Assembly: GCA_947474435.1 (NCBI GenBank)
Contig: CANJII010000001.1
Location: 1 to 64,000, forward strand
Length of the DNA stretch: 64,000 bases
Direction: 5' to 3'
From: Chitinophagaceae bacterium
GTDB taxonomy: Bacteria > Bacteroidota > Bacteroidia > Chitinophagales > UBA10324
The first letter of the stretch is position 1, and each line of letters opens with the position of its first letter. Under the pieces are notes generated by a model that was given only the letters and a program-made list of their open reading frames with translations, ran no database searches and was not told the origin of the DNA. The translations under genes and the position numbers were made by a program. Shown here one piece after another: positions 2,348 to 61,302 of the stretch.

Positions 2348-3409
2348 TCACGCAATAATCCGCTCCAGCTTTGTTTTGTCCTTTATGCCAATGGTGCTGC
2401 CATGAATTTCAATGGCGCCTTCTTCTTTAAAATCAGAGAGTGTGCGTATTAACGATTCGGTTGCAGTGCCCACCATGTTGGCTAAATCTTCGCGCGTAAA
2501 TGCAATGCTGAATTTTTCTTTCGGGTTGTTCTGATATTTATCCTGCAACTGAATAAGCGCTTCAGCCACACGCTGGCGCACGCTGTTGTAGGCAAGTGCC
2601 AATAATCGTTCTTCTTTTTCTTTAAGATTGTGCGATAGCATGCGAATAAATTTGTGACTTACTTCGGCATTATTATAAACCAGTTTTAAAAATTCCTGCT
2701 TTGGTATAATACTTATTTCAGCATCTTCCAATGTTTCAGCTCCCTCGGTATGAGGAGTGTTTTCAAGAAGCGCTACATAACCTAAAAAATCACCGGCTTT
2801 GTGTAAACCAGTGATATATTCCTTGCCATCGTCGTTGGTTTTATAGGTTTTTACTTTTCCTTTTTGAATGTAGTACAAGCCATTGCTGTGACTTCCTTCG
2901 CTGAACATAATTTCCTTTTTTCTGAATTCTTTTGAGTCAAAATTATTCGACATCTCCTTCAGCTCTTCTAGTTCTTCTTTGTCATTAAAAAAAGAATTGA
3001 AATCATGAAACGATGAATCTTCTTCAGCATGTTTTGTCAGTTCCACTTTTTTCAACCGGAGTTCAACTGCATTCAGCAAATCACTTTCATCAAAAGGTTT
3101 GGTTATATAATCATCAGCACCCAAACTCATTCCTTTTCTGAAATCGGTTTTCTCGGCTTTGGCTGTCAGAAAAATAAATGGTATTCCTGCGGTAACAGAA
3201 TTATTGCTGAGTATGCGCAGCACACTGAATCCGTCGAGCACAGGCATCATTACATCACAAATTATTAAGTCGGGCATTAAAGTTTGAGCTTTTTCCAAAC
3301 CTAATTTTCCATTGGAGGCGGTTTCGGTTTTGTAACCTGCAAGGTCTAACATTTCTGAAATGTTTTCGCGCAGATCACGATTGTCTTCAATGAGCAGAAT
3401 GGTTTTCAT
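2348..3409 (-). CDS. Response regulator with Crp/Fnr-type output
   Basis: This 353-residue protein joins a receiver domain (residues about 1-120; acidic pair E8/D9, phospho-acceptor D52 in DLIICDVMMP, Lys in YITKPFD) to a cyclic-nucleotide-binding-like beta-roll (about 150-270) and a C-terminal winged helix (about 280-353). The beta-roll lacks the Arg-Ser/Thr pair that contacts cAMP in Crp (the matching stretch reads NTPHTEGA), and it has no Fnr-type cysteine set, so phosphorylation is the likely signal. The recognition helix contains E318-S-L-I-R322; E and R in this spacing read the TGA half-site in Crp and Fnr. It starts 4 bp after the stop of the histidine kinase, so the two form an operon. 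It is the best candidate in the window to bind the TGA-N6-TCA boxes listed below. Confidence 0.92.
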   Translation of the reverse strand: MKTILLIEDNRDLRENISEMLDLAGYKTETASNGKLGLEKAQTLMPDLIICDVMMPVLDGFSVLRILSNNSVTAGIPFIFLTAKAEKTDFRKGMSLGADDYITKPFDESDLLNAVELRLKKVELTKHAEEDSSFHDFNSFFNDKEELEELKEMSNNFDSKEFRKKEIMFSEGSHSNGLYYIQKGKVKTYKTNDDGKEYITGLHKAGDFLGYVALLENTPHTEGAETLEDAEISIIPKQEFLKLVYNNAEVSHKFIRMLSHNLKEKEERLLALAYNSVRQRVAEALIQLQDKYQNNPKEKFSIAFTREDLANMVGTATESLIRTLSDFKEEGAIEIHGSTIGIKDKTKLERIIA

Positions 3410-3413
3410 AAAT

Positions 3414-5366
3414 TTAATTTTGATTGGTGGGGAGTTGTATGTAAAAAGATGAACCTTTATTTATTTCGCTTTTAAATGTAATAGTACCTCCTAATAATTC
3501 TAAATATCTTTTAATAATATTCAATCCAAGACCAGTGCCTTGTATATTGATTGAATTATTAGCTCTGAAAAAACGCTCGAATAAATGCACCTGATCTTCT
3601 TTCGGAATTCCAATGCCCTGATCGGTTACTTCAATAATCATTTCAGTTTTTATAATTAATATTTTCAAATCAATCACACTTTCTTCAGGGCTGTATTTTA
3701 TGGCATTGCTCAAAAGGTTAACTAAAATATTCCGCAATAAATTTTTATCGGTAAATATTTTTTCATTTTTTTCCGGCAGTTGAATGTTAATTAGTTGACC
3801 GGGTTTAAGCATGCTGTTCATGGTTTCCAGTACATCATCTATAACAAAATTAATTTCAACCCAATCAGGCTTGCATTGAATTTTTCCCTCTTCTAATTTC
3901 CCCAGAGATAGGAAATCATTTAGTATTTCATTCATGTTTTTAACCGCACCCTTTATGCGGTCAACATGCTTGGTGCGTTTTTCCTGTTGCGCTTCGGTTG
4001 GATATTTTTCAATTAATGTAACTGAAGAAAGTATAGAACTCAGTGGTGTGCGGAATTCATGCGAAGCCATATTCACAAACCGCGATTTCAACTCGTTCAG
4101 TTGTTTTTCTTTTTCCAGCGCATTTTTAATTTCTTCTTCGGCGCGTTTTCTTTCAGTAATATTCAGCAGCACCATCAGTAATTGATTCACATCACCATAC
4201 GAATCAATTAACGGAACGGCATTTATAAAATATGATTCATCGCCTATGGTAATTTCAAACGACTGCTGTTTTTTATCAAGAACGCTTTTTAATTTTTCGG
4301 TAATAAATGATGGGTCAGAAATAGGAATAAGCGAAGTCAGGTTCCGGTTTATTAATTCCGATTGGTTTAATTTCAGTTTTAGTAATTCTTTTCCATCAAT
4401 AAACACCACATTTAATTTTGCATCGAGCAAGGCGATTAATCCGTTTGGAAAGTTGTGTGCCATAGCGCTGTAAATGCGCTGACTTTCTTTGAGTGCCTGT
4501 TCGGCATGTTGCTTTTCTAAAATATTTTCCTGTAAATTTTTATTGGTGCGTTCTAATTTTTTAATGGCCTGACCTAATTCCATTGTGCGGTCTTCAACCA
4601 GTTGTTCCAAATGAGCATTCAGGTTTTGAATTTCTTCCACATGATGTGCAATGGCTCCTTCATCTTTTTTCCGTTCAGTTATGTCAATGATAAATGCAAT
4701 CACAAACATTCCTTCTTCTGTTATAAAACTGCTTAAACTTATTTCAATCGGAAACTCACTTCTGTCTTTTCTCATTCCGAACAATTCAACACCGGAACCC
4801 ATGGAGCGAGAGTGCGGATTCACATAATAAGAATTCCTGTAGTGTGCATGTCCACCTTTAAATCGCGGTGGCATTAATTGTTCAACCGGCATTCCTTTTA
4901 ATTCTTCTCTGGTAAATCCAAATTGTTTAGTGGCCGCCGGGTTTGATAAAACGACCTGACCTTTTGTATCAGTAATTAAAAAACCTTCAGTGGCGTTTTC
5001 GAAAAGTGCATCTAATTTTTCCTGCTCGCGAAATTTTAACCGGTCAGAAAATTTACTTCTGATCACAAACCAAACAGCTATCCAGATTCCGATAATAGAA
5101 AGAAGATGATTGATAAGCTGAAGAAAAAGAACCGGACTTGATTTTATATCGGGATATAAACCAATAATACAAAGTACTGTTACAAAATAACCGGAAAGAA
5201 GGGTGCTGTTTTTACCTTTTAACCAAGTGGTTAATAATACAGGTGCAACAAATAAATAAGAGAAATGAAGCTGTGGACTAAAATACAAATCAAGTGCAAG
5301 CAGTAAAAACCCTGACAGATAAACAGTAATAAGTTGAATGGTTTCTTTGCTGTTATTTTTCGTCAT
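3414..5366 (-). CDS. Membrane PAS-sensor histidine kinase
   Basis: The protein (about 650 residues) has three to four hydrophobic N-terminal helices (within residues 1-110), a PAS domain (about 120-240), a coiled-coil linker, a second PAS-like domain (about 300-410), a HisKA domain with the phospho-acceptor in ASHEFRTPLSS (about 435) and a HATPase domain with N box (LLSNAIKYSPEE), G1 (DQGIGIP) and G2 (GTGLGLNI). The first PAS resembles FixL around its haem: a His in GGHAHY aligns with the FixL proximal His, but the distal Arg position is Val. An ATG at 5381 is also in frame, but a perfect -7 element (5379-5386) overlaps it, so I prefer the ATG at 5366. It is the partner of the Crp-type response regulator. 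Confidence 0.9.
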   Translation of the reverse strand: MTKNNSKETIQLITVYLSGFLLLALDLYFSPQLHFSYLFVAPVLLTTWLKGKNSTLLSGYFVTVLCIIGLYPDIKSSPVLFLQLINHLLSIIGIWIAVWFVIRSKFSDRLKFREQEKLDALFENATEGFLITDTKGQVVLSNPAATKQFGFTREELKGMPVEQLMPPRFKGGHAHYRNSYYVNPHSRSMGSGVELFGMRKDRSEFPIEISLSSFITEEGMFVIAFIIDITERKKDEGAIAHHVEEIQNLNAHLEQLVEDRTMELGQAIKKLERTNKNLQENILEKQHAEQALKESQRIYSAMAHNFPNGLIALLDAKLNVVFIDGKELLKLKLNQSELINRNLTSLIPISDPSFITEKLKSVLDKKQQSFEITIGDESYFINAVPLIDSYGDVNQLLMVLLNITERKRAEEEIKNALEKEKQLNELKSRFVNMASHEFRTPLSSILSSVTLIEKYPTEAQQEKRTKHVDRIKGAVKNMNEILNDFLSLGKLEEGKIQCKPDWVEINFVIDDVLETMNSMLKPGQLINIQLPEKNEKIFTDKNLLRNILVNLLSNAIKYSPEESVIDLKILIIKTEMIIEVTDQGIGIPKEDQVHLFERFFRANNSINIQGTGLGLNIIKRYLELLGGTITFKSEINKGSSFYIQLPTNQN

Positions 5367-5378
5367 AATTAATTGCAG

Positions 5379-5386
5379 CAAATGTA
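5379..5386 (-). promoter_or_regulatory. -7 element of the kinase/regulator operon
   Basis: On the minus strand this reads TACATTTG, a full match to TAnnTTTG. The predicted transcript start is near 5375, which makes the ATG at 5366 the first usable start codon of the kinase. Confidence 0.5.
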
Positions 5387-5477: not shown

Positions 5478-5553
5478 CTCCCCGTTGTATCCTTATTTTC
5501 ATAAAGATGATTCAAACATAAATTAACCGGTAAAGATGTAGGGCTGATTTATA

Positions 5554-5931
5554 TCAAGCAGCCGGCTGATTTTTATCAGGTGCACTGTAAATTGTTTGTG
5601 AACTGACTTTAATTTCATTTATCACTGTATCAAGATCATTCAAAACCGAATCGTAATCGAAGCGCAAAACTTTGTAGCCAAGCGATTCGAAATACTGACT
5701 GATAAGTACTTCATTCTGAACAATTATCCCTCGGTGTGAAGGCGAAACTAAAATGATGAGTTTATTTTCAGCAGAGTAAAAATCCACCGTTATACCTTCC
5801 ACCAATTGCTGGCGATTGAATCGGCAATTGTCAATCCGCCTTCCGCTTATTTCTTTCCATAAAATCAAATCCGCTAAAAGAAATTTTTTATTTTTCTGAT
5901 ATTTGATTCGCTCCCTTGATGGTTTTTGCAT
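5554..5931 (-). CDS. DUF559-like endonuclease-fold protein, probably inactive
   Basis: This 125-residue protein matches the DUF559 pattern (VSR/restriction-endonuclease fold): LADLILWKEISGRRI, then FNRQQLVEGITVDFY, then a strand, then a helix and GYKVLRFDYDSVL. In the family, the VDFY Asp is followed by a strand carrying a second acidic residue (usually ELDG). Here that strand reads ILVSPSHRG, so the acidic residue is missing while a His remains. The protein may have lost nuclease activity. It is a single gene with its own terminator. Its cellular role is not known. Confidence 0.75.
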   Translation of the reverse strand: MQKPSRERIKYQKNKKFLLADLILWKEISGRRIDNCRFNRQQLVEGITVDFYSAENKLIILVSPSHRGIIVQNEVLISQYFESLGYKVLRFDYDSVLNDLDTVINEIKVSSQTIYSAPDKNQPAA

Positions 5932-5998: not shown

Positions 5999-6835
5999 TT
6001 ATTTTTTTTCTACCGGAATCATTAACAACGGAACAACTAAATGATAAGCAAGTTTAGCAGCATGACTTGGATTTAATAACTGCTCAATAAAATTTCGGCT
6101 GTGATGTGCCATGGCCAGTAAATCAAATGAACCTTCAATTAAAAATTCATTTATACCATTTACAAAATCAGGCGCATCAATGCAGTTGTACTCCACATTT
6201 TTTATTCTGTATAGCTCGTCAACTTTTTCTTTGAACCGACTGACTACAGTATCTTCAAAGTTGTGACTTAAAATTCCATCTTCAATATGTATTAAGGTTA
6301 ATTTCGAATTGAATTTTTCAATCCATTCAAACATTCGGTTTATGGCGGGCAATTCATCTTCCATACAATCGCTTGCGAATGCAATATTGGTAGCAGGTTT
6401 AAAATTTAGTCCATCAGGAATTGCTAACACAGGGCAATGAGCTTTTGAAATAACCGAAGCAGTATTGCTTCCCATAAATATTTTTTTAAATCCGCTGGCA
6501 CCTTTTGTTCCCATAATAATTATATCAGCACACAAATCACTTGCTGCTGTTACAATTTCGTCTGATGCAAAACCCCAGTTACTTGCGCAACTTATTTTCA
6601 GTTCAGGATGTGTTTTTTTTATTTCGATTGAAAGTTCTTTCAATTTGTTTTCTGAATCGGTTTTTATTGCATGATTCATCACTGCATCAACTGGTATGTC
6701 GGACATATAAACAGGAATAGGATATGAATTAAACAAAATAAGTTCTGCATGAAAAAGAACGGCAACTTCTACGGCATAATTCAACGCATCATTGGCATTT
6801 TTTGAAAAATCAGTCGGGAATAATATGGTCTTCAT
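5999..6835 (-). CDS. Universal stress protein, tandem UspA domains
   Basis: The 278-residue protein has two UspA domains. The first (residues 1-145) starts MKTILFPTDFS and carries the ATP-binding signature (IIMGTKGASGFKKIFMGSNTASVISKAHCPVLAIP region, about 105-140). The second (about 150-278) is degenerate: its terminal motif reads SHAAKLAYHLVVPLLMIP and lacks the Gly-rich loop. Such proteins help survival under energy or oxygen limitation in the cytoplasm. The gene is divergent from the cbb3 oxidase cluster and has a TGA-N6-TCA box centred 33 bp before its -7 element (see 6853-6917), so it is probably co-regulated with the oxidase. Confidence 0.92.
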   Translation of the reverse strand: MKTILFPTDFSKNANDALNYAVEVAVLFHAELILFNSYPIPVYMSDIPVDAVMNHAIKTDSENKLKELSIEIKKTHPELKISCASNWGFASDEIVTAASDLCADIIIMGTKGASGFKKIFMGSNTASVISKAHCPVLAIPDGLNFKPATNIAFASDCMEDELPAINRMFEWIEKFNSKLTLIHIEDGILSHNFEDTVVSRFKEKVDELYRIKNVEYNCIDAPDFVNGINEFLIEGSFDLLAMAHHSRNFIEQLLNPSHAAKLAYHLVVPLLMIPVEKK

Positions 6836-6852: not shown

Positions 6853-6917
6853 CGAAGGTCTGTTCTTAAAACTCTTCAGGCAATGACTTGCATCACATTG
6901 CATTATGATAAAGCGCA
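6853..6917 (-). promoter_or_regulatory. Usp promoter with tandem Crp/Fnr-like boxes
   Basis: The proximal box TGACTTGCATCA (6884-6895, centre 6889.5) lies 33 bp from the centre of a -7-like element, GACCTTCG on the minus strand (6853-6860). A weaker second box, TGATAAAGCGCA (6906-6917), lies exactly 22 bp further upstream. The predicted start is about 14 bp before the ATG. The second box matches only five of the six core bases. Confidence 0.55.
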
Positions 6918-7092
6918 TAAAAGTTTTTTTGAATTCTGATTTTTCTATTCCCTTATATTTTATTTATCAATTGAAGTTTAAAAAATTGTTGAATCAGGGA
7001 ATCAATAAAAAATATAGTTTATAAAAAAAAGTTGATTCTTTTTTTATAAGATTTTTAAAAACTATCTGAACAATTTCTTTATAATTTATTTA

Positions 7093-7157
7093 TGATAAAA
7101 ATCAGCCACACAACTGAGTGAGGTCATGTATTCTTCTCGTTTGAAAAAAGATTTTTG
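7093..7157 (+). promoter_or_regulatory. cbb3 cluster promoter with tandem Crp/Fnr-like boxes
   Basis: The distal box TGATAAAAATCA (7093-7104) is a perfect TGAT-N4-ATCA repeat. The proximal box TGAGTGAGGTCA (7115-7126) is centred exactly 22 bp downstream of it. The -7 element GATTTTTG (7150-7157) is centred 33 bp further on. The predicted transcript start near 7161 precedes the ccoS start by about 17 bp. The rest of the 342-bp gap between the stress protein and ccoS is AT-rich without other features that I can see. Confidence 0.65.
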
Positions 7158-7177: not shown

Positions 7178-7378
7178 TTGGAAGTAATCATAATTCTCAT
7201 TGGTTTCAGTTTGGTATTTGCAATTGGATTTCTCATTGCATTTTTTATTTCCGTTAAGCGAGGTCAGTTCGATGACACCTATACGCCAGCAGTCCGAATT
7301 CTTTTAGACGACAACCAAATCACAAATAATAAACCTAACACAACCCCCAATCAATCAAATGGAAATGCAAAAGTTTAA
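7178..7378 (+). CDS. ccoS: cbb3 oxidase assembly protein CcoS
   Basis: The 66-residue protein has one N-terminal membrane helix followed by the CcoS signature: a Gly/Phe-rich helix, then GQFDDTYTPAVRILLDD. CcoS is needed to insert haem and copper cofactors into cbb3 oxidase. The frame opens at a TTG (7178); there is no ATG that would keep the first helix. It is the first gene of the oxidase cluster and its last 20 bases overlap ccoNO, which suggests translational coupling. The C-terminal tail is polar and Asn-rich. Confidence 0.9.
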   Translation: MEVIIILIGFSLVFAIGFLIAFFISVKRGQFDDTYTPAVRILLDDNQITNNKPNTTPNQSNGNAKV

Positions 7379-9500
7379 GTACGATAACCGAATCGTACGA
7401 ATGTTTATGATTGCTTCAGTTTTCTGGGGCATCATCGGTATGCTGGTCGGATTATACATCTCACTGGAAATGTTTGCGCCCTCACTGAACTTCGGAATTT
7501 CGTTTCTGACTTTCAGCCACCTTCGCGCACTGCACACGAATGCAGTAATTTTTGCATTCGTTGGAAACGGAATTTTCTTCGGGCTTTATTATTCGTTGCA
7601 GCGATTAACGAAGGCAAGAATGTTCAGCGATTTATTAAGCAACATTCATTTCTGGGGCTGGCAATTAATAATTGTATCAGCCGCAATCACTCTTCCATTC
7701 GGAATTACAACCGGAAAAGAATATGCAGAACTGGAATGGCCAATTGATATTCTCATTGCATTAGTGTGGGTGATTTTCGCCATCAATATGTTTGGTACTA
7801 TTATAAAACGCAGGGAACGGCACATGTATGTTGCTATCTGGTTTTACATAGCCACTGTTATTACAGTTGCCATGTTGCACATTGTAAATTCAATTGAAAT
7901 TCCGGTAAGCTTATTCAAAAGTTATCCGGTTTATGCGGGTGTGCAGGATGCATTGGTTCAGTGGTGGTATGGTCATAATGCAGTCGCATTTTTCTTAACT
8001 ACTCCTTACCTCGGATTGATGTATTACTTCATGCCGAAGGCTGCAGGCCGTCCGGTTTATTCATACAAACTTTCTATCGTTCACTTTTGGGCATTAATAT
8101 TTTTATATATCTGGGCAGGTCCTCACCATTTAATTTATACATCATTGCCTGATTGGGCGCAATCACTTGGAACTGTTTTCTCCATCATGCTCATTGCACC
8201 ATCGTGGGGTGGAATGATAAATGGATTGCTGACTCTTCGTGGCGCTTGGGATAAAGTAAGAGAAGATGTGACTTTGAAATTTATGGTGGTTGCAGTTACT
8301 GCTTATGGAATGGCAACTTTTGAAGGACCTATGCTCTCCATAAAAAGTGTGAATGCTATTTCGCATTTTACCGACTGGACCATTGCGCATGTACACATTG
8401 GTGCATTGGGTTGGAATGGATTTTTAACTTTTGGAATTTTATACTACCTCGTTCCTAAATTATGGAACACGAAAATTTATTCAACACGATTAGGTAATAT
8501 TCATTTCTGGTTAGGTACACTTGGAATTGTATTGTATGCTGTGCCCTTGTACTTCGCTGGCTTTGCTCAAAGTTTAATGTGGAAAGAATTTACACCGGAT
8601 GGAACACTTGCTTATCCGAATTTTCTGAACACTGTTACAAAAATTATTGGCATGTATGAGTTGCGTTCCATTGGCGGAACATTGTATCTCGTTGGAACAT
8701 TGGTGGGTGCTTATAATTTAATGAAGACTGCAGGCAAAGGAAAATTTATTGGTGATGAGGAAGCACAGGCTCCTGCATTGGAAAAAAATTATGAAGCACA
8801 CGGAGGTTCACACTGGCATCGCTGGATTGAACGCCGGCCAATACAATTTACTTTCTGGGCACTTATTGCCGTTGTGATTGGTGGTTTACTCGAAATTGTT
8901 CCAACCTTTTTAATTAAATCAAACATACCAACCATCGCAAGCGTGAAACCCTATACACCACTTGAATTACAGGGACGAGATTTATACATACGCGAAGGTT
9001 GTAGTCTTTGTCACTCGCAAATGGTGCGACCGTTCCGTTCTGAAACTGTGCGCTATGGTGAATATTCTAAGGCAGGAGAATTTATTTACGATCATCCGTT
9101 TCAATGGGGATCAAAACGAACCGGACCTGATTTAGCCAGGGAAGGAAAAGGAAATCAGAATTATAAACCCGACTCGTGGCATTACACTCACTTGTTAGAT
9201 CCGCAAAGTACTTCAACAGGATCCATAATGCCTGCATATACCTGGCTTGGTGAAAATGTTTTAGACAATGAAACACTTCCTGCAAAAATCCGCGCCATGC
9301 AAACACTTGGTGTTCCCTATGGAAAAGGCTACGATAAAATTGCTGTTGATGATTTGAAAAAGCAGGCCACTGTAATTGCAAAAGGATTAAACAAAGAAGG
9401 TTTTGATGTAACTAGCGATAAAGAAATTATTGCTGTGATTGCCTACCTGCAACGATTAGGATCCGATATAAATGTAAAACCCACAACCACCACAAAATGA
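7359..9500 (+). CDS. ccoN: cbb3-type cytochrome c oxidase, fused subunits I and II
   Basis: This 713-residue protein fuses CcoN (about 1-490) to CcoO (about 500-713). It is the catalytic part of the high-affinity proton-pumping cbb3 oxidase, which reduces oxygen at low concentration. CcoN has about twelve membrane helices and the expected metal ligands: His in HLRALHTN, WWYGHNAVAF and GPHHLIYT (CuB), and HVHIGALGWNGF (haems). CcoO has one anchor helix and a c-type haem site, CSLCH, at about 548-552, followed by the typical QMVRPFRSE. The fusion is the usual Bacteroidota arrangement. It starts at the ATG inside the end of ccoS and overlaps the next gene by an ATGA. Confidence 0.97.
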   Translation: MEMQKFKYDNRIVRMFMIASVFWGIIGMLVGLYISLEMFAPSLNFGISFLTFSHLRALHTNAVIFAFVGNGIFFGLYYSLQRLTKARMFSDLLSNIHFWGWQLIIVSAAITLPFGITTGKEYAELEWPIDILIALVWVIFAINMFGTIIKRRERHMYVAIWFYIATVITVAMLHIVNSIEIPVSLFKSYPVYAGVQDALVQWWYGHNAVAFFLTTPYLGLMYYFMPKAAGRPVYSYKLSIVHFWALIFLYIWAGPHHLIYTSLPDWAQSLGTVFSIMLIAPSWGGMINGLLTLRGAWDKVREDVTLKFMVVAVTAYGMATFEGPMLSIKSVNAISHFTDWTIAHVHIGALGWNGFLTFGILYYLVPKLWNTKIYSTRLGNIHFWLGTLGIVLYAVPLYFAGFAQSLMWKEFTPDGTLAYPNFLNTVTKIIGMYELRSIGGTLYLVGTLVGAYNLMKTAGKGKFIGDEEAQAPALEKNYEAHGGSHWHRWIERRPIQFTFWALIAVVIGGLLEIVPTFLIKSNIPTIASVKPYTPLELQGRDLYIREGCSLCHSQMVRPFRSETVRYGEYSKAGEFIYDHPFQWGSKRTGPDLAREGKGNQNYKPDSWHYTHLLDPQSTSTGSIMPAYTWLGENVLDNETLPAKIRAMQTLGVPYGKGYDKIAVDDLKKQATVIAKGLNKEGFDVTSDKEIIAVIAYLQRLGSDINVKPTTTTK

Positions 9501-13603: not shown

Positions 13604-14020
13604 ATGAAAACAACCATAAAATTTTTCCTTTTTGCTGCACTGATCAGCTTGTTTGCATCATGCGCCAAGAATCCCGGAAATTTGTTGATTAAAAAAGAAG
13701 GTACATGGACCGCTACAACTGTTACAACTATTGACAGTTTCGGAACATTCACTGATGTTTATGAAATGACTTTTTATGAAGGTTCCGCAACACAAAAAGA
13801 TACTGCTGGAAACATCTCTTCTTTCAATTGGTATTATGATAAAAAAGCTGCTCAAATCGTAATTTCACTTTATGATGGTGTTAATACTACTACCATTATT
13901 GAGGAAGTAAGTAATATTGAAACAGATTCAGAAAAATGGACCTATAAATCCCGAACCTATAACGGTATTAAAACCACTCCGGCAGGATATACCCAGGAAA
14001 CTTCGTTAGTGCGTAAGTAA
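13604..14020 (+). CDS. Small lipoprotein, copy 1 of tandem pair
   Basis: The 138-residue protein has a lipoprotein signal peptide with the lipobox LFASC (Cys at about 21). The mature part is beta-rich, Thr-rich and about 115 residues long, with a central W-x-YDKKA turn; it looks like a lipocalin-like or DUF5004-type fold. It is exported and probably attached to the outer membrane. The next gene is a close paralogue of exactly the same length. The function is unknown. Confidence 0.8.
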   Translation: MKTTIKFFLFAALISLFASCAKNPGNLLIKKEGTWTATTVTTIDSFGTFTDVYEMTFYEGSATQKDTAGNISSFNWYYDKKAAQIVISLYDGVNTTTIIEEVSNIETDSEKWTYKSRTYNGIKTTPAGYTQETSLVRK

Positions 14021-14222: not shown

Positions 14223-14639
14223 ATGAAAACAACAATTAAACTTTTCTTCTTTGCTGCAATGATCAGCTTGTTTGCATCATGTGCAAAAAACCCTGCGAAA
14301 TTACTTGTAAGTAAGGACGGTATCTGGACAGCCACTGCAGTTACGACCATTCCAGGTTTAGGCACTTACACAGATGTTAATGAAATCACCTTTTCTGATG
14401 GCACCGGAACCACAAAGGATGCCCTTGGCGTTACAACTACATTTACTTGGTCATACGATAAAAAGGCTGAGCAGATGACCATTACAACTGTTGAATCAGG
14501 AAACACTACAATAACAATTAATGCTGTTTCTGAAATTGAAAAAGATTCAGAAAAATGGAATTTCGTTTCTGGCACATTGAATGGAGTAACATTTACAACT
14601 GCTGATTTTACTCAAGTAACCACACTGGTTCGTAAATAA
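14223..14639 (+). CDS. Small lipoprotein, copy 2 of tandem pair
   Basis: This is a 138-residue paralogue of the preceding gene. It shares the signal peptide and lipobox (LFASCAKNP), the GxWTAT.VTT segment after the signal, the SYDKKA motif and the C-terminal LVRK. The two differ mainly in the middle strands, so the duplication is not recent, yet the length has not changed. It is likely surface-exposed or periplasmic. A clear terminator follows. Confidence 0.8.
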   Translation: MKTTIKLFFFAAMISLFASCAKNPAKLLVSKDGIWTATAVTTIPGLGTYTDVNEITFSDGTGTTKDALGVTTTFTWSYDKKAEQMTITTVESGNTTITINAVSEIEKDSEKWNFVSGTLNGVTFTTADFTQVTTLVRK

Positions 14640-48248: not shown

Positions 48249-48312
48249 TGACAATAGTCAGTTTTGTTTTTGACTTAAATCATTTATACCTAAAACAGGC
48301 ATCCCAACTTTG
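48249..48312 (+). promoter_or_regulatory. Ferredoxin/NrfD operon promoter with tandem Crp/Fnr-like boxes
   Basis: TGACAATAGTCA (48249-48260) and TGACTTAAATCA (48271-48282) are centred exactly 22 bp apart. The proximal one (with flanks TTGACTTAAATCAT) is close to the Fnr/Anr consensus. The -7-like element CAACTTTG (48305-48312) is centred 32 bp downstream of the proximal box. The first gene starts at 48353. Confidence 0.65.
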
Positions 48313-48609: not shown

Positions 48610-49527
48610 ATGGAAGACGCAAATAATAATTCGAGAAGAAATTTTTTGAAGGCGGGTTTAGTTGTTGGAGGAACAGCAGTTGTGGGGCTTGGTGCATTTG
48701 AAGCTCTATCTGATGACTCCATTCCGAAAACCGGAGAAAAAATAAAACTGCTTTCACCTGATGGAAAAATTGTGGAAGTTGATTCTTCGCTCATTAATCC
48801 TGCTATGCTGCCCGATATGAAATTCAGCGAGCACAATGTGCGTGAAGGGGTTCCGAATAAAAAATTTGTGATGGTGATTGATTTATCCCGTTGCAAAAAT
48901 GCAGGCAAGTGTCGCAAGGCATGTTCTAAAATGCACTATCTCCCCGAAGAAAGAAGTTTTATTAAAGTAGAGAAAATGCAGGATGCAGAAACTACTGCAC
49001 CTTACTGGATGCCGACTCCGTGTTTCCATTGCGACAATCCGCCTTGCGTTAAGGTATGTCCTGTTGGGGCCACTTTTAAATTATCTGATGGAATAGTGGG
49101 CATTGATAATCAGCGTTGCATTGGTTGTCGTTTTTGTATGGTGGCTTGTCCGTATTCAGCTCGCGTATTTAATTGGGGTGAAGAGTTAAATAAAATGCCA
49201 GAGACTGAATTCAAAAAAATTGAAAGTCACGATGCCTGTTGTTCTCATGTAACCGGCACTGTTGAAAAATGTGATTTCTGTCCAAGCAAAACACAGAACA
49301 ACGAAATACCTGATTGTGTGTCTGCTTGTCCGAATGGTGTTTTCTTTTTCGGTAATGAATTGGATGATACCGTTACCAATGGCGACGAAACTGTTCGATT
49401 GAGTCAGTTATTAATCGACAAAGCCGGTTATCGTTATCTCGAAGATTTAGGAACCAAACCCAGAGTTTATTATTTACCTCCAGTTGACAGACAGTTTCCT
49501 TTTAAAGAACCTACTAAACAAAGTTGA
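48610..49527 (+). CDS. Tat-exported four-cluster ferredoxin (NrfC/DmsB type)
   Basis: The 305-residue protein has a Tat signal (SRRNFLKAG), the DGKIVEVD module (about 45-60), and a ferredoxin domain with four Cys sets: CKNAGKCRKACSK (about 97), CFHCDNPPCVKVCP (about 141), CIGCRFCMVACP (about 172) and CDFCPSK...CVSACP (about 222-245). This is the electron-transfer subunit type of molybdopterin enzymes and of Nrf/Hmc/Act complexes. It passes electrons between the NrfD membrane protein and a partner. No molybdopterin subunit is in the window. Confidence 0.93.
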   Translation: MEDANNNSRRNFLKAGLVVGGTAVVGLGAFEALSDDSIPKTGEKIKLLSPDGKIVEVDSSLINPAMLPDMKFSEHNVREGVPNKKFVMVIDLSRCKNAGKCRKACSKMHYLPEERSFIKVEKMQDAETTAPYWMPTPCFHCDNPPCVKVCPVGATFKLSDGIVGIDNQRCIGCRFCMVACPYSARVFNWGEELNKMPETEFKKIESHDACCSHVTGTVEKCDFCPSKTQNNEIPDCVSACPNGVFFFGNELDDTVTNGDETVRLSQLLIDKAGYRYLEDLGTKPRVYYLPPVDRQFPFKEPTKQS

Positions 49528-49530
49528 TTT

Positions 49531-50901
49531 ATGAACAAGATTATAGAAATTAAGGAAGTTCAAGCTGAAAAAACTTCGAAAGAGAAAATGGATGAGTTGG
49601 TGAAAGATCTCATGCCACGAAAATTTGGTACTGTTGGAAAAATATGGACATGGGGATTAATCATTATGGTGCTGGTTGGACTATATAATTACATACAACA
49701 ACTGCGTTATGGTTTAATAGTAACCGACATGCGCGATTTTACATCGTGGGGAATTTACATTTCGAACTTTGTATTTTTTGTTGCCATCAGTTTGGTTGGT
49801 TCGCTGGTAAGCGCCATTTTAAAACTAAACAATGTTCATTGGAGAACACCATTGGTTCGTATCGCCGAAATCATTGCCGTAGCAGCCATCACTTTTGCTG
49901 CACTCATTATTATAGTTGACATGGGAAGACCGGAAAGATTCTGGCACTTGTTTGTTTATGGAAGAATTCAATCACCGATAATGTGGGATGTGATTGTCAT
50001 CTCCACTTATTTCACCATCAGTTTATTGTTGTTATACATTCCAACATTACCTGATATTGCTTTAATGCGCGACCGTTTGGTTGATATACCAAAATGGCGC
50101 AAATTTTTATATCGGTTTTTAGCATTGAATTGGCGGGGAACCAAGCAGCAATATAAAATTATGAATCGCATGGTTGCCATTCTTGCGGTATTAATAATTC
50201 CACTTGCATTATCCATTCACACTGTCACCTCATGGCTATTTGCTACAACTTTCCGCGCTGGTTGGGACAGTACTAACTTCGGTCCGTACTTCGTGTCAGG
50301 TGCTTTTATGGTTGGAGCCGCAGCTGTTATTGCAGTGATGTATGTGTTGCGCGATCATTATCATTTACAGAAATACATTACCACAAAACATTTTGATAAC
50401 ATGGGAAAATTATTGGTGCTGTTATCTTTTGTTTACCTGTATTTCAACATCAATGAATACTTAGTATCAGGTTATAAAATGAAAGTAGCAGAAGGCGCTC
50501 AGTTGTTCGATTTATTTGTTGGCCGCTTTGCACCCATGTTCTGGTTTGTACAAATAGGTGGAATGATAATTCCAATCATCGTTTTACTTTTTAAAAGAGG
50601 AAGAAAACCGGTTCCGATTTTTATTATCGCATTGATGGTAGTAGTTGGTGCATGGTTCAAACGGTTTTTAATTGTTACACCAACTTTATTGCATCCGTTT
50701 ATTCCAATTCAAAATGTTCCTGAATCATGGATGCATTACAATCCAACATTTGCCGAATGGTCTATCACCGCAGCATCATTGGCAGGTGCATTATTAATTA
50801 TCACTTGGTTTGTTCGTTTGTTTCCTGCAGTTCCTATTTGGGAAATGGCCGAAGAAGCAAAAATTGAACATGAGTTAAACATAAAAGATTCTGTAAAATG
50901 A
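49531..50901 (+). CDS. NrfD/PsrC-family membrane quinone-interacting protein
   Basis: The 456-residue protein has about ten membrane helices. It shows NrfD/ActC-type motifs: DMGRPERFWHLFVYGRIQSPIMWD (about 130-155), and LSIHTVTSWLFATTFRAGWDS followed by PYFVSGAFMVG (about 227-260). NrfD proteins exchange electrons between quinone and an external ferredoxin. The gene starts 3 bp after the ferredoxin stop and overlaps the following gene by an ATGA. With the ferredoxin and the cytochrome c it could form a quinol-cytochrome c oxidoreductase. Confidence 0.92.
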   Translation: MNKIIEIKEVQAEKTSKEKMDELVKDLMPRKFGTVGKIWTWGLIIMVLVGLYNYIQQLRYGLIVTDMRDFTSWGIYISNFVFFVAISLVGSLVSAILKLNNVHWRTPLVRIAEIIAVAAITFAALIIIVDMGRPERFWHLFVYGRIQSPIMWDVIVISTYFTISLLLLYIPTLPDIALMRDRLVDIPKWRKFLYRFLALNWRGTKQQYKIMNRMVAILAVLIIPLALSIHTVTSWLFATTFRAGWDSTNFGPYFVSGAFMVGAAAVIAVMYVLRDHYHLQKYITTKHFDNMGKLLVLLSFVYLYFNINEYLVSGYKMKVAEGAQLFDLFVGRFAPMFWFVQIGGMIIPIIVLLFKRGRKPVPIFIIALMVVVGAWFKRFLIVTPTLLHPFIPIQNVPESWMHYNPTFAEWSITAASLAGALLIITWFVRLFPAVPIWEMAEEAKIEHELNIKDSVK

Positions 50902-51485
50902 AAAAGATAAAATTTATTCAATCATTAATGCTGATTGCAGTAATACTGTTTTCACAACTGATTTTGGTTTCAAAATTGAAAGCGCAGGATGGAATTGATA
51001 CCGGTAAAGCAAAAATCGCTATCACATTTTTTTCGGAAGACAGTGTGAAACAAGTGAAAGCAACACTGACAAAAACAGGAGCCGATGGAAAGGAAATTCC
51101 AATTCCTGAAATTGATATTCATTTTTATGCTCAACGCGATTTTGGATTGCTGCCATTGGAAGGAGATAATAAAACAACCGATGAAAGCGGAGTAGCGTTT
51201 ATTGATTTCCCAACTGATTTACCAGGCGATAGTGCAGGAAATGTTAAAGTTATTGCACGACTGGAGGAAGACGAAGTGTATGGTGAATTGGCAGATGCAA
51301 AAAATATTAATTGGGGTAAAAAATTGATAAAAGAAGAATCATCTTTGCGAACCATGTGGGCTTCGGGAATAAATGCCCCGTGGAGTTTAGTGATTGTGGT
51401 TACAGGTATGATTGTTGGCGTATGGTTTGTTATTCTTTATGTGATAATTCAAATGTTCAAAATAAATAAATTAGGTAAACTATGA
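50898..51485 (+). CDS. Exported protein with C-terminal membrane anchor
   Basis: The 195-residue protein has a signal peptide (about 1-30, ending KAQDG), a beta-rich extracytoplasmic domain (about 35-140; Ig/CNA-B-like, with TDESGVAFIDFPTDLPGDSAG) and a C-terminal membrane helix (about 160-185). I do not recognise the family. It is translationally coupled to NrfD (ATGA overlap) and to the following cytochrome (overlap of 4 bp), so it is almost surely a subunit of the same complex. Confidence 0.8.
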   Translation: MKKIKFIQSLMLIAVILFSQLILVSKLKAQDGIDTGKAKIAITFFSEDSVKQVKATLTKTGADGKEIPIPEIDIHFYAQRDFGLLPLEGDNKTTDESGVAFIDFPTDLPGDSAGNVKVIARLEEDEVYGELADAKNINWGKKLIKEESSLRTMWASGINAPWSLVIVVTGMIVGVWFVILYVIIQMFKINKLGKL

Positions 51486-51913
51486 AAGCAAAAAACAATT
51501 TTAAAATCGGCCTCAGGTTAGGCGCGATGTTAATGATCTCAGGTATTATTTTCTTCAGTTCATTTTCTGTTCGTCAGGATGGAGATAAATGGGTTGCACC
51601 TGAATCAGCTAAAAAAGTAAAGAACCCTGTGGTGTCTGATGCCGCAAGCATTGCCGAAGGCAAAGTGCTGTATGCACAGTTCTGTAAATCATGTCATGGT
51701 GTTAAAGGCTTAGGCGATGGAACCAAAGCTGCCACGCTCGATAAAAAATGCGGCGATTTCAGCAGCAAGGCATACCAGGCACAAACAGATGGTGAATTGT
51801 ATTGGAAAACTACCGAAGGAAAAGATCCGATGCCAACTTTCGAAAAGAAAATTCCGGATGCAACCGACCGTTGGAAAATTATCATTTACACAAGAACCTT
51901 AGCAGCCAAGTAA
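51482..51913 (+). CDS. Monohaem cytochrome c
   Basis: The 143-residue protein has an N-terminal signal or anchor (about 10-30), and a class I cytochrome c domain with CKSCH (about 68-72) and the axial Met in DPMPTFEKKI (about 119). It is periplasmic, possibly membrane-tethered. As the last gene of the ferredoxin/NrfD unit it is a likely electron acceptor that could feed the cbb3 oxidase. A strong terminator follows. Confidence 0.93.
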   Translation: MKAKNNFKIGLRLGAMLMISGIIFFSSFSVRQDGDKWVAPESAKKVKNPVVSDAASIAEGKVLYAQFCKSCHGVKGLGDGTKAATLDKKCGDFSSKAYQAQTDGELYWKTTEGKDPMPTFEKKIPDATDRWKIIIYTRTLAAK

Positions 51914-61237: not shown

Positions 61238-61302
61238 CAAATTTCCAATAGGAATCATTCGTACTTCATGACTATAGTCAAATTAGCATATGATTTATCT
61301 CA
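61238..61302 (-). promoter_or_regulatory. YceI/cytochrome operon promoter with tandem Crp/Fnr-like boxes
   Basis: TGACTATAGTCA (61269-61280) is a perfect inverted repeat centred 33 bp from GAAATTTG (minus strand, 61238-61245). A second box, TGAGATAAATCA on the minus strand (61291-61302), is centred exactly 22 bp further upstream. The predicted transcript start lies about 40 bp before the YceI ATG. Confidence 0.65.

Follow-up and report, generated by a model that had tools for sequence, protein, structure and literature searches.

How is the transcription of two divergently oriented genes, one encoding a universal stress protein (usp) and the other opening a cbb3 oxidase gene cluster (ccoS-ccoNO), controlled from the single intergenic region that separates them? 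We approached this question for a Chitinophagaceae bacterium within a window of 64,000 nucleotides (contig CANJII010000001.1, positions 1 to 64,000), the whole stretch of DNA that was analysed. A first-pass annotation had claimed that both promoters share one control geometry, in which a TGA-N6-TCA box is centred 33 bp from a -7-like element and a second box is centred 22 bp further upstream. The region contains the following features.

5999-6835, minus strand: universal stress protein gene usp (Pfam Usp, 4.8e-32)
6853-6860, minus strand: weak -7-like element of usp, GACCTTCG
6884-6895, minus strand: usp proximal box, TGATGCAAGTCA, perfect; centre 33 bp from the -7 centre
6906-6917, minus strand: usp distal box, TGCGCTTTATCA, one half-site mismatch (TGC)
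7093-7104, plus strand: ccoS distal box, TGATAAAAATCA, perfect TGA-N6-TCA by motif match
7115-7126, plus strand: ccoS proximal box, TGAGTGAGGTCA, perfect; 22-bp step from the distal box, predicted centre about -40
7150-7157, plus strand: ccoS -7-like element, GATTTTTG
7178-7378, plus strand: ccoS (FixS; Pfam FixS, 3.8e-20; TTG start assumed)
7359-9500, plus strand: ccoNO fusion, cbb3 oxidase subunits I and II (Pfam COX1 and FixO; NCBIfam PRK14485)

The ccoS promoter conforms fully to the proposed geometry: both boxes are perfect, they are spaced by 22 bp, and the centres of the proximal box (7120.5) and of the -7 element (7153.5) lie 33 bp apart. In the usp direction the proximal box is likewise perfect and correctly placed at 33 bp; the distal box, however, carries one mismatch and the -7 element matches the consensus at only 4 of 6 positions. 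The usp promoter is a weaker, imperfect copy of the pair.

Paired boxes at a 22-bp step in the window and the genome

The window contains 36 single TGA-N6-TCA boxes versus 29.8 expected, which is no enrichment, and the canonical FNR box TTGA-N6-TCAA, which we considered as an alternative motif, was rejected, as it has one match there, fewer than expected. All four perfect close pairs of the window have the 22-bp step. Besides ccoS, they precede the operon for a sensor kinase and its regulator, an operon for FeS, NrfD and cytochrome c proteins, and a YceI-like/EB_dh/cytochrome c cluster.

5513-5520, minus strand: kinase-regulator operon, -7 element TATGTTTG, 34 bp from the proximal box centre
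5545-5556, minus strand: kinase-regulator operon, proximal box of a perfect pair
5567-5578, minus strand: kinase-regulator operon, distal box of the same pair
48249-48260, plus strand: FeS/NrfD/cytochrome c operon, distal box of a perfect pair
48271-48282, plus strand: FeS/NrfD/cytochrome c operon, proximal box of the same pair
48305-48312, plus strand: FeS/NrfD/cytochrome c operon, -7 element CAACTTTG
48610-51913, plus strand: target operon (TAT 4Fe-4S protein, NrfD, unknown protein, cytochrome c)
61238-61245, minus strand: YceI-like/EB_dh/cytochrome c cluster, -7 element GAAATTTG
61269-61280, minus strand: YceI-like/EB_dh/cytochrome c cluster, proximal box of a perfect pair
61291-61302, minus strand: YceI-like/EB_dh/cytochrome c cluster, distal box of the same pair

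Across the genome, 29 pairs are separated by gaps of 0-30 bp; 11 of them have the 10-bp gap that corresponds to the 22-bp step, as against 18 distributed over the other 30 gaps (Poisson P about 5e-11), and a control search with the reversed pattern at this step found no pair genome-wide. Nine of the 11 pairs are intergenic. The two located inside open reading frames (contigs C4 and C81) have no -7 element and were set aside as chance matches.

The paired element in other Bacteroidota

Among 61 relatives of the same order, 43 genomes possess at least one pair, some of them 18, with controls near zero. A collection of 133 distinct pairs was assembled, 126 of which lie outside open reading frames. 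When TAnnTTTG was scored at every offset from these pairs, a single peak emerged at a first-base offset of 29, equivalent to an element centre at 33 bp; 53 of 138 gene-facing orientations have the element there, versus 0-9 at any other offset. The 33-bp distance that had been proposed from the two local promoters is hence exactly the one recovered from the collection. A second set, which partly overlaps the first (G002 is the same genome as L248), comprised 80 Bacteroidota contigs or loci selected on the sole criterion that they encode an orthologue of the 2348-3409 protein. It yielded 59 step-22 pairs versus 0.9 per other step (control 0), and 57 matches to TAnnTTTG at offset 29, about one per pair, with at most 6 elsewhere. 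The counts derive from simple ORF calls, some loci on short contigs and several incomplete relatives. A strict search for the full element in 296 genomes of the phylum, in which the spacer was left free between 20 and 24 bp, found 23 matches, 21 of them with a spacer of 23 bp, and none in the reversed control.

These numbers bear directly on the notion that AT-rich intergenic DNA simply yields such pairs as matches due to chance or low complexity. Single boxes are indeed frequent, and the window has no excess of them, but neither an exact step combined with an exact -7 offset in many lineages nor controls near zero would be expected from such matches. We therefore assign this explanation a negligible probability; the full set of pairs refutes it, and the usp copy taken alone is the weaker case.

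Most such promoters have the outer box but not all of them do, because an outer box matching at 5-6 of 6 positions is found at step 22 in 70 of the 108 boxes that have a -7 element at offset 29; about one third of the boxes with a correctly placed -7 element are thus without it. Two loci (G035:C2:2518584-2518639 and G033:C9:96410-96465) contain three boxes in a row at successive steps of 22 bp, as if three dimers could align. The paired architecture as such is common but not universal in Bacteroidota, since the flanks that were read contain no exact pair at 46 of the 80 regulator loci, and three genomes encoding the regulator (G028, G036 and G046) are without an exact pair. Conversely, G005 has two pairs and neither of the regulator types discussed below.

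The sequence logo of the paired promoters reads TGAYAAAARTCA-N10-TGAYNNNNRTCAT-N22-TAnnTTTG, the -7 columns of which are not independent evidence, as the sequences were selected on their -7 score. No -33 element is visible in it. This feature matters for the question of whether the element might repress rather than activate, with dimers near -40 and -62 blocking RNA polymerase until a signal relieves the repression. The inner box does adjoin the -33 region, as repression would have it; yet the missing -33 element and the fixed register to the -7 element are what one would expect of an activator-dependent promoter, and FNR and FixK activate low-oxygen genes of the kind found among the targets. 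We consider repression very improbable and favor activation.

Conservation at orthologous promoters

An alignment of the usp-ccoS intergenic region across congeners proved too diverged to be of use, and the sites were compared individually. In congener G003, the pair and an identical GATTTTTG are kept upstream of ccoNO. In congener G004, the usp pair is kept with the same TGC deviation in its distal box and the same GACCTTCG, and the pair of the kinase promoter is kept together with TATGTTTG; no pair within one mismatch was found at usp of G003. The boxes upstream of both genes are accordingly not peculiar to this genome, and the lack of conservation in relatives that the first-pass annotation had named as a refutation was not observed. 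The shared control geometry claimed for usp and ccoS stands in so far as the 22/33 arrangement is rigid and kept at orthologous promoters; it is not, however, local to these two genes but common to a whole regulon.

Genes downstream of the pairs

The first genes downstream of the pairs include ccoN or ccoNO (19), Usp (24), histidine kinases (about 20) and CcoI-type P-type ATPases (11), along with cytochromes c, YceI, Hsp20, N2O reductase, hemerythrin and a RIC-like domain. In the genome under study, the targets further include Hsp20, a pyruvate-phosphate-dikinase-like (PPDK-like) enzyme, rubrerythrin and a cytochrome c. Judged by its gene content, the gene set behind the paired boxes is a putative low-oxygen regulon. 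The ORF list of the window holds no catalytic molybdopterin subunit for the 48610-51913 operon with its TAT-exported 4Fe-4S protein. The kinase gene is preceded by a pair and TATGTTTG, an arrangement that G004 retains, and histidine kinases occur among the targets; from this we infer that the kinase-regulator operon is autoregulated.

Three further observations concern other sequences. A one-mismatch pair at L016:8549-8582, just downstream of a second REC-Crp gene, is not followed by a clear protein gene and could drive a small RNA. Within the window, 13604-14020 and 14223-14639 are adjacent, similar genes for 138-aa lipoprotein-like proteins, apparently a tandem duplication, and 473-1093 encodes a 206-aa protein that looks ferritin-like or COQ7-like and has no Pfam match.

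The candidate regulator

The first-pass annotation had pointed to the protein encoded at 2348-3409 as the regulator of both promoters. It is encoded next to a sensor kinase.

2348-3409, minus strand: REC-cNMP_binding-HTH_Crp response regulator (Pfam domains; Response_reg 2.7e-28), proposed activator
3414-5381, minus strand: sensor histidine kinase with a TM region, PAS domains, HisKA and HATPase; first PAS domain (4659-5024) FixL-like, proximal haem His position kept

The protein has the attributes of a two-component response regulator, namely a phosphoacceptor Asp, an acidic pocket, the Lys residue and an adjacent kinase gene; D52 and K104 of the receiver are invariant, and E8/D9 are conserved to at least 90%. 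By sequence, FNR is the nearest solved structure to its output domain, but it possesses one cysteine and no CxxC..C motif, and hence no Fe-S cysteine cluster of the FNR type. Control by cAMP in the manner of CRP was rejected by inspection, as GDFLGYVALLENTPHTEGAET lacks the Arg-Ser/Thr phosphate-binding cassette. An AlphaFold model (mean pLDDT 77.8, pTM 0.39) has the expected domains in an unreliable arrangement and was not used as evidence.

Physical linkage and co-occurrence both connect this protein family to the pairs, which gives the earlier proposal a comparative footing. Of 118 pairs, 23 lie within 5 kb of the REC-Crp gene versus 0.41 expected. Pairs are commoner in genomes with a REC-Crp gene than in those with neither regulator type (P 2.5e-5), and the median number of pairs in nearly complete genomes is 3.5 with REC-Crp, 1.5 with only the standalone Cys-rich relative, and 0 with neither. 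The 2348-3409 protein is, on these grounds, most likely the activator that would read the paired boxes.

Two other readers have to be weighed, as the genome also encodes further Crp/Fnr proteins besides two REC-Crp proteins, and these could share sites. One is the second REC-Crp paralogue (G000:C7:68665-69720, corresponding to L016:8657-9721), which is 64% identical to the 2348-3409 protein; the boxes might be read by it, or by both, and not mainly by 2348-3409. Its recognition helix is nearly the same and pairs for Hsp20 and the PPDK-like gene lie nearby, but one residue of the acidic pocket is missing from its receiver (EGN in place of EDN), and G003 and G004 have pairs with a single REC-Crp gene. 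We judge this reading unlikely. Still less probable in our assessment is that a standalone Fe-S FNR-like protein reads the boxes and the REC-Crp gene is a mere neighbor. A Cys-rich standalone Crp/Fnr protein (CxxC..C) does occur beside pairs in G043, G055, G051 and G033, and pairs are more numerous in genomes that have this type alone than in those without either (P 0.0014). G004, G006, G012, G044 and G056, however, have pairs with REC-Crp as the sole FNR-like candidate type found. In the genome under study the only Cys-rich candidate, G000:C16:25625-26332, has the recognition helix EQVSK instead of ExxxR, and the best match among the 15 relatives compared shares only 34% identity with it; the candidate was rejected as the regulator on its recognition helix and distribution. 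We thus retain the 2348-3409 protein as the principal candidate.

The standalone CxxC..C proteins adjoining pairs in those four genomes have a recognition helix very similar to that of REC-Crp. This similarity suggests that input domains were exchanged on a single operator.

The kinase and its putative signal

The best characterised matches of the first PAS domain of the kinase are FixL (4.2e-12) and DosP, and the proximal haem His of FixL is aligned, so that by sequence this is a FixL-type PAS domain. None of the 19 kinases examined, which either precede such regulators or carry the pair, deviates at this His. A haem is not assured by this residue alone, because it also occurs in a PAS domain of unstated ligand in the top PDB match, the multi-sensor kinase 10jx. 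That the kinase senses oxygen through haem is in our view the likeliest reading, though we hold it with some reservation.

A model for the paired promoters

The geometry, enrichment, conservation, target list and linkage to the regulator gene, all of them computed, lend themselves to a coherent regulatory model. A composite activator promoter, TGAYNNNNRTCA-N10-TGAYNNNNRTCA-about 23 bp-TAnnTTTG, would be present in two copies in the usp-ccoS region. The palindromic TGA-N6-TCA operator is of the type found in Crp/Fnr class II activator promoters. Two Crp/Fnr-type activator dimers would lie next to each other, at about -62 and -40; since two helical turns span close to 22 bp, they would sit nearly on one face of the DNA. 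The inner dimer may contact RNA polymerase in a class II-like manner and thereby replace the missing -33 element, and the outer dimer would stabilise the inner one. A class II-like position had been proposed for the local boxes; the fixed 22/33 geometry of the comparative set predicts about -40 from the -7 element, versus -41.5 for class II.

Under low oxygen, the kinase would phosphorylate REC-Crp, which would then bind and induce the cbb3 oxidase, Usp and redox genes as well as its own operon. Binding, phosphorylation, the haem, the oxygen signal, the transcript starts and the direction of regulation are what we infer here. We consider the composite operator together with the REC-Crp model, as formulated, probable, with the oxygen step as its least certain part.

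Comparison with known systems

The DosS/DosT-DosR system of Mycobacterium combines haem-sensor kinases and two-component control with Hsp20 and Usp targets. The arrangement predicted here resembles it in the two-component control, the Hsp20 and Usp targets and the putative haem sensor; DosR, however, is a NarL/LuxR-type regulator, and its box differs from the TGA-N6-TCA pairs. With FNR/Anr class II promoters, our system has in common the TGA-N6-TCA boxes, at a predicted position near -41, an output domain to which FNR is the nearest solved structure, and an overlapping target list (cbb3, Usp and cytochromes c). It differs in that 2348-3409 has no Fe-S cysteines, the boxes are paired at a fixed 22-bp step, and the flanking T/A of TTGA-N6-TCAA is not required. 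More than one activator dimer per promoter is also a trait of the tandem-site (class III) promoters of E. coli CRP, for which positions of -41.5, -61.5 and -93.5 are quoted (PMC5957442); in the promoters considered here, by contrast, 22 bp separate the two sites, and both lie close to the core promoter.

Crp/Fnr homologues of Flavobacteriales and Saprospiraceae have been assigned to MalR-like carbon sensing (PMC8510549), and a term search of that text found no paired element. We found no earlier description of it in the open-access papers that we searched, which is weak evidence of novelty.

Closest in its overall layout is the rhizobial FixL-FixJ-FixK2 cascade, which targets cbb3 oxidase and redox genes (PMC4999443). 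Both combine a kinase with a FixL-like PAS domain and a regulator that carries a receiver domain, both employ a Crp/Fnr output, and the genes for cbb3 oxidase and redox functions are targets of the one and predicted targets of the other. In contrast to the rhizobial cascade, receiver and Crp/Fnr output are united here in one REC-cNMP-HTH_Crp protein, with no separate FixJ, and the promoters, in another phylum, have two adjacent boxes and a Bacteroidota -7 element. Viewed as a whole, this may be a widespread oxygen regulon of Bacteroidota in which one protein merges the roles of FixJ and FixK and occupies a double operator of 34 bp as two touching dimers, and in which evolution exchanged one input domain for another, Cys-rich FNR type or receiver, with operator and recognition helix unchanged; for this broad reading our belief and our doubt are evenly balanced. 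If it holds true, a low-oxygen circuit of the Bacteroidota can be predicted, its operator read and its targets listed from sequence alone. It also raises the questions of why two dimers should be set 22 bp apart, how a regulator family could switch its input from a Cys-rich FNR-type sensor to phosphorylation, or the reverse, on an unchanged operator, and whether REC-Crp is a one-step version of FixL-FixJ-FixK.
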